A stretch of 64,000 nt of DNA from Thermalbibacter longus (GTDB lineage: Bacteria > Chloroflexota > Chloroflexia > Thermomicrobiales > Thermomicrobiaceae), in contig NZ_JAMSLR010000010.1 of NCBI RefSeq assembly GCF_023806485.1, positions 1 through 64,000 on the forward strand, written 5' to 3'. The translations under genes were made by a program, and so were the position numbers. Below the pieces are notes generated by a model. The model saw nothing but the letters and a program-made list of their open reading frames with translations. It ran no database searches and was not told the origin of the DNA. Position 1 is the stretch's first letter, and the number at the start of each line of letters is the position of its first letter. Positions 38,438 to 41,643 of this stretch are shown one piece after another.

Positions 38438-38875
38438 TCATCTCATGCCATCAGCGGCGGTCGTCTTGCCTCCGGCGGGAACCAGGCGAAAGATGATCGC
38501 GCGTCGTAGACGTCCCTCACGATCGGGAACATTCTCCTGCATCTCAAAACCGTCGAGCGTCATCTCCCCGACATACCGGTACCAGCCGGGACGTACCCAC
38601 TCGAAGAGATGGAGGGCTTTCCCCGTACGCTGGTGATCACGAATTGCCTTGTTGCCACGCACGAACTCCATGTTGCCCGTCTGTCCCTCGCCCGTGAAGA
38701 GGTAGTGGGACCGATCCGAAGACCAGCCGTCGCGATACCCATAGAGCGAGCCATTTGGTGATGAGAACAGCAAGATGAAGCTCTGACCGTGCGGAGTGCT
38801 GATCCCGCCCTGTGGCTGCCCGCCGTATTTGAGATGAATCTCGGCGCGCCGGTACTCTGTGCCGGGACTGAACAT
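38438..38875 (-). CDS. Stand-alone SRA-like (ScoMcrA-type) DNA-modification reader domain
   Basis: The 145-aa protein consists of one domain with the consensus seen next to HNH nuclease domains in ScoMcrA-type modification-dependent enzymes. It has IHLKYGGQPQGGIS at 13-26, YGYRDGW at 45-51, and a YLFTGEGQTGNMEFVRGNKA stretch from 58 onward leading to IRDH. SRA domains flip and read modified cytosine; in ScoMcrA the SRA sits beside a phosphorothioate-binding domain. No nuclease domain is attached here. The ATG at 38875 follows GGGGAGG with 5-base spacing. The gene lies 76 bases after the NERD-helicase gene on the same strand. Confidence 0.7.
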   Translation of the reverse strand: MFSPGTEYRRAEIHLKYGGQPQGGISTPHGQSFILLFSSPNGSLYGYRDGWSSDRSHYLFTGEGQTGNMEFVRGNKAIRDHQRTGKALHLFEWVRPGWYRYVGEMTLDGFEMQENVPDREGRLRRAIIFRLVPAGGKTTAADGMR

Positions 38876-38951
38876 CTGCACCTCCCCGTGAGAGCATAAG
38901 CTTCCGATATGGTCGCGGTCGATCCTCCCCAGTCGAGTCTCCTTGCTCGCC

Positions 38952-40640
38952 CTAGACGACAGGCAGTTCGCCGAGCACGATCAGATGCGAGCGCGCTCGC
39001 GACAGGCCGACGTAGAGAAGTTGCTCAGCGCTCGCTGGATGGACTCTGTCCAGTTCGGTGAGGATGACGACAGGCTTCTCCAGTCCCTTGAACGCGTGGA
39101 TGGTGGAGACCTGCACGCGATCCGGTTGACTGCCCATCCGATCCCACGAGAGTCGCCACTTTCCGACCTGTCGGAGCGCGTTGAGCCCGCTCTCCCTCCG
39201 CACTGGCGTCAACACCACGACGTCGGTGATGGGAATCCTCTCTTCGTCGAAGAGATAGTCGAGCTTCAGGCGTAGCGCGGTGGGCAGGTCGGTGTCGCCG
39301 AGCGGGACATGCTCGACCTCCGGCCCGTCTGGCCCGAGACAAACCGGGGGTTCCGATCCGTGGTAGTACGGGCGGAAACGCTCGAAGATCTGGCGGGTGT
39401 TGCGGATATTCTCGTTGAGGACGTAGGGCTCGCCTTCGATCGGAATACGGACTTCCTGCTGGTAGATGCGCTGGTTGTCGTCGTAGAAGGCATAGAGGAT
39501 ACCCTGGTCGGGGTCGGCCAGCATGGCGTGGAGGCTTACCCACCATTCCTCACAGAAGTCCTGCGCCTCGTCTACGATAACCGCGTCGAAACGGTCGGGG
39601 ACGCGATCCAGCGCCTGCAGCATGAGTTCGGGCGCCTCTTCGCGGTAGAAGCGGGTTGTCTCGGCCGGCGACTCGGAGTCATCAGGTTCGTGAAATGGGA
39701 TTCCCCCTCTCGCGCAGAGTTGCCGAGCCAGCTCGTGATAGTGCAGCACCACCAAGTGGTAATCGCTGTCGTCAGAAGGCCACCCGTACCCTTCGCGGGG
39801 CGAGAAGTTCTGCTGCATCCAGCTCGCTAGGCTGGCATTGAAGCAGGTCAACAGTACCCGCAGGCCCTGTTCGGTCAGCCGCCGCGCTTTCTCCATCGCA
39901 AGCATCGTCTTACCGGAGCCAGCGCAACCGGCGATCTTAGCCCGGCGCTGGCGCCCGAGGAACTTCAGGATCCGGTACTGGGCCTCGGTCAACTGCAGGA
40001 TTGAGCTCTCGGTCTGGCGCAGGGCGAAGCCGAGGCTGGGGCGTCGGATCTCTATGCCGGGACTCAGTGCGTGGACGAGGGCCTCGAGGGCCAGCGGCCC
40101 GATGCGCGAGTCATGGGCAGGCGGGCCCAGGGCGCGTTCGATCGCTCTGGGCAAGTTCTGCATGGCGGGGCCGTCGATCACGAGGTCAGGGTCGCACCCT
40201 GGTCCAAGATACTGCTTGCCTACTGTACAATCGGGAAAGGCCACCGCGTGCCGGACCTGGTAGTGGAAGGCTCTGGTGCGCGGCGTCTCGTTCAGCTTCT
40301 CCACCAGTGCAAAACGGTTCCGTTGGGCCTGGCGTAGCGGATCGTCGATCTCGTGCTTCTGCTCGTCGGCATCGATCGAGTACCACCTGCCACTGCGCGA
40401 GTCCCGCAACACGCCACCACCCTTGACCTCGAGGACGAGCACGCCTCGATCCGGATCGATGACGATGAAGTCGATCTCGCAGTTGATCTCCTTCCGTTCG
40501 CCCGGGCGCAGCAGGATCGGGACGCTGTGCATCACGACCACGCTATCGGGCAGTTGGCGCTTCAGCTCATGGTAGAGCGTTCGCTCTGCGTCGCTCTCGA
40601 AACTGCAATAGGCAGGGTGCTCCGGATACATCTTTGCCAT
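38952..40640 (-). CDS. NERD nuclease-domain / superfamily-1 helicase fusion
   Basis: The 562-aa protein has two parts. Residues 15-140 are a NERD domain of the PD-(D/E)xK nuclease class: Glu20, Asp57 (EIDF), Glu71-x-Lys73 (LEVKGG) and the PLRQAQ motif near 101-106. Residues 215-560 are a UvrD/PcrA-like ATPase: GCAGSGKT 238-245 (motif I), VIVDEAQDF 354-362 (motif II), YAFYDDNQ 383-390, STIHAFKGLE 512-521 and YVGLSRAR 543-550. All key residues are present, so both activities look functional. The ATG at 40640 follows GGAGGT. The coupled SRA-like gene downstream suggests a role in recognising and destroying modified foreign DNA (inference). Confidence 0.88.
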   Translation of the reverse strand: MAKMYPEHPAYCSFESDAERTLYHELKRQLPDSVVVMHSVPILLRPGERKEINCEIDFIVIDPDRGVLVLEVKGGGVLRDSRSGRWYSIDADEQKHEIDDPLRQAQRNRFALVEKLNETPRTRAFHYQVRHAVAFPDCTVGKQYLGPGCDPDLVIDGPAMQNLPRAIERALGPPAHDSRIGPLALEALVHALSPGIEIRRPSLGFALRQTESSILQLTEAQYRILKFLGRQRRAKIAGCAGSGKTMLAMEKARRLTEQGLRVLLTCFNASLASWMQQNFSPREGYGWPSDDSDYHLVVLHYHELARQLCARGGIPFHEPDDSESPAETTRFYREEAPELMLQALDRVPDRFDAVIVDEAQDFCEEWWVSLHAMLADPDQGILYAFYDDNQRIYQQEVRIPIEGEPYVLNENIRNTRQIFERFRPYYHGSEPPVCLGPDGPEVEHVPLGDTDLPTALRLKLDYLFDEERIPITDVVVLTPVRRESGLNALRQVGKWRLSWDRMGSQPDRVQVSTIHAFKGLEKPVVILTELDRVHPASAEQLLYVGLSRARSHLIVLGELPVV

Positions 40641-40920: not shown

Positions 40921-41643
40921 TCAGCCTGTGTCAGGCAGACCGTAGTGGCAGCGAAGGCGGTCGACCCAGCCGCGGACGGTGGTCTCTGGCTGCCGACCGA
41001 GCCAGTCGATGGTCTCCTGGGGCATCGATAGCCACCCGGCCACCTCGACGACCGTCGAGGCTGGCACGACGAGCGAGTCCGCCACGCCCGCGCGCAGCGC
41101 CGCGCCGACGAGTGCGGGCGCGAACATCGCCAGATCCATCTCCACGAGCAGGGCTGCAGGCTCGACCCGCTCCATGAGTCGCCGTACCCGCTCGACCCAC
41201 CCGAGCAGGGTAGTGGCTTTCTGCCTGTGAAGATGTTCGCGGATCTCCTCCGGGAGTCGAGCCAGCCGCGCAGCTCGGGTCGCGACTTCCGTAGACACCT
41301 GCACCGACGTCGCTTGTTGCTGCACGACCACCGCGGCGAGGCCGAGCCAGAAGTTGTGGAGTTGTGCGCGGTAGAGGCCGTGGCGAATCTGCTCTTCGTC
41401 GAGTTTGGGAAATCGAAACAGCCCGGCTGACGCTTCGTGCAGTAACTCGTCGAGCGTGAGGGGCTGAGGGTCGTTTAGCGACGAAGCTTGCGAAGTCCGA
41501 TCGCTGGGCGCGGTAGTAGATTGTGTGCGGTTCCCGCTCTGCTCCTGAGGTGGATCGTCCATAAGCGCGCGTTGGACGACCACGTCGAACGGTGAGATGA
41601 ACCAGGGAAGTGGCCACTTGTCCTGTGAAGAACCGTGAGACAT
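40921..41643 (-). CDS. Protein of unknown function, 240 aa
   Basis: The start at 41643 is set by an AAAGGAG site 6 bases upstream. The first 65 residues are polar and Ser/Gln/Thr-rich. From about 65 to 240 the protein is helical, with several repeated-looking helices (LARLPEEIREHLHRQKATTLLGWVERVRRL near residues 127-156). No signal peptide, catalytic motif or zinc site is seen; a hydrophobic patch near 96-106 is too short for a clear membrane span. It is upstream of the helicase-SRA pair by 280 bases on the same strand and could be either a separate gene or part of that accessory region. Confidence 0.6.
   Translation of the reverse strand: MSHGSSQDKWPLPWFISPFDVVVQRALMDDPPQEQSGNRTQSTTAPSDRTSQASSLNDPQPLTLDELLHEASAGLFRFPKLDEEQIRHGLYRAQLHNFWLGLAAVVVQQQATSVQVSTEVATRAARLARLPEEIREHLHRQKATTLLGWVERVRRLMERVEPAALLVEMDLAMFAPALVGAALRAGVADSLVVPASTVVEVAGWLSMPQETIDWLGRQPETTVRGWVDRLRCHYGLPDTG

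Follow-up and report, generated by a model that had tools for sequence, protein, structure and literature searches.

SauUSI carries a PLD nuclease, an SF2 motor and an SRA domain in one chain, and recognition of 5mC or 5hmC by the SRA triggers ATP-driven translocation and cutting (PMC7913695). McrBC follows a comparable reader, motor and nuclease logic with an AAA+ GTPase motor and the McrC nuclease. ScoMcrA and TagI have an HNH nuclease fused to the SRA and no motor, and ScoMcrA reads sulfur through a separate sulfur-binding domain (SBD). In TagI, Tyr55, Asp58 and Tyr67 are the residues of the flipped-base pocket (PMC6212794). TALON, ARMADA and DISARM are systems of YprA type (PMC12458937); in Chloroflexota, TALON joins YprA to a NERD nuclease (PMC12458937), and ARMADA-II carries a UvrD helicase. 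The NERD-UvrD helicases listed by PADLOC (RTasNERD-Hel in DRT loci, and C3a187) are found with reverse transcriptases or in uncharacterised contexts. Lastly, PDC-S41 is a PADLOC candidate that combines PD-ExK with a Schlafen group 3 helicase. A literature search found no description of PDC-S41 or of a NERD-helicase/SRA pair.

The present analysis concerns two adjacent genes in the window, the 64,000-nucleotide stretch of Thermalbibacter longus DNA that was analysed. The first gene, at 38952..40640 on the minus strand, encodes a 562-aa NERD nuclease-UvrD (SF1) helicase, identified by Pfam and PADLOC. Pfam assigns NERD (E 3e-13, residues 17-136, 40233..40592 by the Pfam boundaries), UvrD_C_2 (6e-10) and UvrD_C to the ORF, and in PADLOC it matches RTasNERD-Hel (4.6e-65) and C3a187 "NERD+UvrD" (1.3e-33). 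An alignment of 14 diverse helicase relatives (29-80% identical) was used to examine the motifs, all on the minus strand. Invariant positions include the PD-(D/E)xK residues Asp57 (40470-40472), Glu71 (40428-40430) and Lys73 (40422-40424), and the glycines, lysine (K244) and threonine of the Walker A sequence or helicase motif I (GCAGSGKT, residues 238-245, 39906..39929). D357, E358 and Q360 of motif II (DEAQ, residues 357-360, 39561..39572) are also invariant, as are G519, S547 and R548 in the C-terminal UvrD-like part with motifs V and VI (residues 511-555, 38976..39110, Pfam UvrD_C_2). Because the catalytic residues are invariant across the 14 homologues, the NERD nuclease and the SF1 motor are probably both active. 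The AlphaFold model of the NERD-helicase (three input sequences) had a pLDDT of 54 and a pTM of 0.35 and was set aside. The protein thus belongs with the PADLOC NERD-UvrD helicases, since it joins NERD and SF1 helicase parts in one chain and keeps their motifs intact, but the link to an SRA is found at the window and not in the PADLOC contexts. The ORF list of the window and the Pfam scan of the neighbours show no reverse transcriptase gene adjoining the helicase, which separates the locus from DRT.

The second gene, at 38438..38875 on the minus strand, encodes a stand-alone protein of 145 aa. Its best start is the ATG at 38875, directly preceded by a GGGGAGG ribosome-binding site. The protein had no match in Pfam or NCBIfam, so its identity as an SRA came only from PDB, PADLOC and fold searches. 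A single-sequence phmmer search of the PDB matched residues 13-98 to ScoMcrA (5zmn, E 4e-5), and a profile of the 14-member family matched ScoMcrA at 2e-9. Second in the profile search was the plant SUVH5 SRA at 0.037, with the common signature GYxD...YTGxG...GNxA. PADLOC mREase_IV matches the protein at 3.7e-5. The AlphaFold model (pLDDT 89, pTM 0.83) compares best with the ScoMcrA SRA (5zmm, Z 14.1), followed by the SUVH5 SRA with methylated DNA (Z 12.3), TagI (Z 10.5) and the SauUSI SRA (Z 9.4). ScoMcrA is thus closest in both sequence and fold, and on the strength of the model the small protein is a complete, single SRA domain of ScoMcrA type. The preliminary description had recognized a NERD domain fused to a UvrD-like motor with all catalytic motifs, followed on the same strand by a ScoMcrA-like SRA; these domain calls are right, and the profile check assigns the small protein to the SRAs and not to an unrelated family. 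As a single domain with no nuclease, it differs from the HNH-SRA enzymes ScoMcrA and TagI, whose SRA subtype it shares.

The predicted flipped-base pocket of the SRA spans 38696..38737 on the minus strand. Y47 (38735-38737) and D49 (38729-38731) are invariant among 25 aligned SRA domains, and residue 60 (38696-38698) is F where Tyr is almost always present in the others. These positions line up with the SUVH5 motif GYND...IYTG, and the two aromatics and the carboxylate fit the parts assigned to the pocket residues of TagI (PMC6212794). Modified cytosine is the predicted target, judging from the fold, from the pocket residues and from how ScoMcrA and TagI behave (PMC7461809, PMC6212794). The SRA fold by itself is no proof of binding, because an SRA variant in HHPV4I was reported to be inactive (PMC10101028). 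Phosphorothioate DNA, which the preliminary description also listed for a restriction test, was rejected as a target; ScoMcrA reads sulfur with the SBD, a different domain that is missing from the small protein.

The two genes are co-directional and separated by 76 bp (38876..38951, minus strand), and a terminator scan of this gap found no terminator-like site between the helicase stop and the SRA start. They are probably co-transcribed in Thermalbibacter longus. Our best explanation, held with slightly less than even confidence, is a helicase-nuclease of defence type that has, as its targeting subunit, an optional reader of modified cytosine. The NERD-UvrD protein would be a self-contained ATP-driven DNA translocase carrying a PD-(D/E)xK cutter. 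The SRA protein would act on incoming DNA, flip out its 5-methyl- or 5-hydroxymethyl-cytosine and, at the modified site, recruit or license the NERD-helicase, which would then translocate and cut. Such a mechanism would amount to SauUSI-like logic split across two chains and could restrict modified phage DNA. This partnership is supported by the intact domains, the close co-directional spacing and the SauUSI precedent, as well as by the ancestry of the pair and the analogues elsewhere described below.

The preliminary description considered the partition of these parts to be unlike known type IV enzymes. The pair does differ from SauUSI, McrBC and ScoMcrA, but the combination of reader, motor and nuclease has a precedent in SauUSI, where an SRA reader is likewise coupled to a nuclease and a translocase driven by ATP. 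SauUSI is one polypeptide with SF2 and PLD domains, whereas the window has an SF1 motor, a NERD PD-ExK nuclease and a reader on a separate gene; the pair thus lies outside the SauUSI family, whose members carry a PLD nuclease, an SF2 ATPase and an SRA on a single polypeptide. The same SF1 and NERD domains separate the pair from McrBC, although its SRA subtype also occurs in haloarchaeal McrB-like proteins.

The pair was then compared with the orthologous loci of two sister species in the genus (G002 and G003), which share with the window an unknown gene upstream and a mandelate-racemase family gene downstream. The upstream gene of the window (40921-41643) encodes a 239-aa protein with no Pfam match that is 51-58% identical in the two sisters. 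In both sisters the helicase is 79-80% identical with an open reading frame, but one shared deletion has cut the SRA down to residues 86-134. The remnant is a decaying 3' piece with stops and frame changes that sits at exactly the place of the window SRA. Since both sisters keep it at the identical place, the pair is the ancestral state of the genus, and the SRA has been lost in two of the three species of this one genus that carry the helicase locus. The helicase is under purifying selection, with a dN/dS of 0.16 between G002 and G003 and of 0.12-0.14 against the window. Because the SRA deletion is common to both sisters, this selection acted mostly after SRA loss, and an omega of 0.16 between SRA-less sisters indicates that the helicase has an SRA-independent job and does not need the SRA. 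The SRA gene is thus an optional extra rather than one of the two parts of a conserved machine, contrary to the module first proposed. A C5-cytosine methylase had no match in the host genome, so a 5mC reader would spare the host's own DNA. However, this argument is weak because G002 likewise has no C5 methylase and yet lost its SRA. The SRA may have been lost after gain of a C5 methylase, which fits G003, where the methylase is present, but not G002.

These results also bear on a credible though rather doubtful alternative, in which the two genes are independent neighbours, the NERD-helicase acting on phage DNA by itself or together with other systems in trans and the SRA being an orphan reader with its own role. 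Two sisters that dropped the SRA and kept the helicase are what this alternative predicts, but same-strand adjacency at 76 bp is improbable by chance for two rare genes. Outside the genus the alternative gains further, since about 47 NERD-helicase loci were examined there and no SRA gene adjoins any of them. Nor do the families clearly co-occur. Among 98 relatives outside the genus, 13 have the SRA, 17 the NERD-helicase and three both (p 0.40); among 398 phylum genomes (a sample of 400 minus two of this genus) the counts are 11, 37 and three (p 0.07). The gene pair is therefore confined to one genus in the neighbourhood survey, and for this exact pair the two-gene module fails the check on conservation in other genomes that the preliminary description itself set. 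In addition, the scanned genes around the window pair (genes of the mandelate-racemase family, one of the Mur ligase family, a HAD hydrolase and tRNA-Asp) include no defence island and no mobile element. The SRA loss in the sisters, the lack of SRA neighbours and of clear co-occurrence, the orphan SRA relatives noted below and the absence of an island all weaken the idea of a targeting partnership.

The lack of an island or mobile element and the stable synteny within the genus could also fit a role in genome maintenance, in which the helicase-nuclease would act in DNA repair and the SRA would sense damaged or modified bases; the repair factor MrfA is among the YprA relatives (PMC12458937). 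This explanation is very unlikely. The NERD-helicase is patchily distributed (20 of 101 relatives and 39 of 400 phylum genomes), the PADLOC families that it matches are defence families, and relatives occur on plasmids and viral-type contigs. A scan of viral contigs with the helicase alignment gave two intact relatives and one partial match, and scans with single helicase sequences gave nothing useful.

A YprA-family helicase adjoins 11 of the approximately 47 NERD-helicase loci outside the genus (about a quarter), several in operon order, and also a NERD-helicase on a viral-type contig (L184). These YprA neighbours either carry a fused MZB domain or are split YprA-DUF1998, as in DISARM. Together with the TALON pairing of YprA with a NERD nuclease (PMC12458937) and an SRA gene located behind the UvrD helicase in one ARMADA-II-like operon (below), this raises the alternative that the NERD-helicase is the effector of a DISARM, ARMADA or TALON type system encoded elsewhere or lost, and that the SRA replaced or supplements the YprA partner as target finder. 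We consider this unlikely, since no YprA-family helicase lies next to the window gene or at the orthologous loci of both sisters and most NERD-helicases in the class stand alone. The window locus also has no SNF2 or PglX gene, unlike TALON, ARMADA and DISARM. Because the neighbours vary (YprA types, a sacsin/NO VEIN type) and are never an SRA at the loci examined outside the genus, the NERD-helicase is a mix-and-match defence effector.

Several other NERD-helicase loci were observed. Besides its orthologue, G003 has another, diverged NERD-helicase, which directly precedes a YprA-type helicase that carries an MZB domain (L144, G003:C97). On a viral-type contig (L183:271-7722), a 1907-aa protein with a Sacsin domain and a NO VEIN C-terminus is encoded immediately 5' of the NERD-helicase, and in Sphingomonas naphthae (L121) a DUF3883 protein occupies the equivalent position. 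In another genome (L138, G063:C2) the NERD-helicase is directly upstream of ORFs that resemble, by eye, type I CRISPR cas genes.

SRA genes in other genomes also bear on the targeting partnership. The ScoMcrA-type SRA family is widespread but sparse, and its members are mostly fused to HNH, or else to a predicted PD-ExK domain or a haloarchaeal McrB-like protein, or stand alone. Close relatives of the window SRA, 55-59% identical to it, are orphans that lack a helicase in their neighbourhood, and many stand-alone SRAs of related families have no obvious partner. Orphan SRAs in these related families are under purifying selection (omega 0.13-0.16, two pairs tested), as would be expected if the window genes were independent neighbours. 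Against that alternative, nuclease-free SRAs repeatedly adjoin helicase-nucleases in other genomes. A hand count outside the genus gave about 18-19 independent SRA genes that carry no nuclease, and five of them adjoin a helicase-nuclease, a helicase or a nuclease on the same strand; for 5 of 19 the probability is 3e-5 if the base rate is 2% or less, but the partner categories were picked post hoc and defence genes tend to cluster.

For example, PDC-S41 adjoins a nuclease-free SRA in three unrelated loci: in Bacillus MRMR6 (L018) on the same strand with a 1-bp gap, in a Chloroflexota genome (L078) with the genes overlapping, and on a viral-type contig (L118) with a gap of about 12 bp and type I R-M-like genes alongside. 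A related case is a natural Chloroflexota fusion (L152:2-2107, G156:C130), in which a canonical SAD_SRA domain (5.9e-48) is joined to a helicase of Schlafen group 3; a PD-ExK-like stretch lies between them, which places reader, nuclease and motor in one chain. PDC-S41 differs from the window protein in its helicase family and PD-ExK domain, and it is absent from the window. In G582:C10 (L211/L216) an SRA lies 142 bp downstream of an operon in ARMADA-II order (SNF2 helicase, PglX-like, YprA, RelE-like/UvrD; the SNF2, PglX and RelE parts were assigned by eye), the one case in which an SRA follows ARMADA-II. This SRA, possibly a decaying copy, lacks about 11 residues, among them the second aromatic of the pocket. 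In G504:C1 (L212:5449-6828) a stand-alone SRA is followed 25 bp on by a stand-alone NERD nuclease, with a PLD-SF2 helicase upstream.

These adjacent pairs and the G156 fusion indicate that SRA readers do team with helicase-nucleases, and these independent cases (PDC-S41, ARMADA-type UvrD, NERD nuclease and the SRA-helicase fusion) lend support, by analogy, to the broader idea that a stand-alone SRA can serve a helicase-nuclease. The partnership proposed for the window is reasonable for the same reason, yet this particular pairing is evolutionarily shallow, and overall the preliminary interpretation is partly supported. It is a fair but tentative possibility that ScoMcrA-type stand-alone SRAs are plug-in modified-cytosine readers recruited independently by NERD-UvrD, PDC-S41, ARMADA-II and stand-alone NERD proteins. 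The outcome would be modification-dependent restriction by two components, powered by ATP and different from that of McrBC and SauUSI, with the window pair as one such recruitment, lost again in the sisters. Detachable SRA readers beside helicase-nuclease systems are a more interesting lead than the window pair. If the partnership is true, modification sensing would be a detachable subunit able to retarget generic helicase-nucleases, which would explain the spread of immunity to modified phage DNA among otherwise unrelated systems and open the many orphan SRA genes to testing. If the partnership is false, the case shows how two defence-type genes can lie side by side in one genus without being a system.

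Other SRA loci were also recorded. On the viral-type contig noted above, the SRA and PDC-S41 genes are followed by an ADP-ribosylglycohydrolase-like ORF and the type I R-M-like genes, assigned by eye (L118/L146). An orphan SRA relative in G011 (L024:8178-8669) is broken by one in-frame TAG. On three haloarchaeal plasmids (L082, L083, L084) the ScoMcrA-type SRA lies inside an AAA_5 (McrB-like) protein of about 1210 aa, and an overlapping, unannotated gene of about 450 aa comes next, in the McrC position. Lastly, gene 63 of Gordonia phage Sidious (L087:2986-3882) encodes a phage SRA with a long C-terminal extension, beside two annotated methyltransferase genes.
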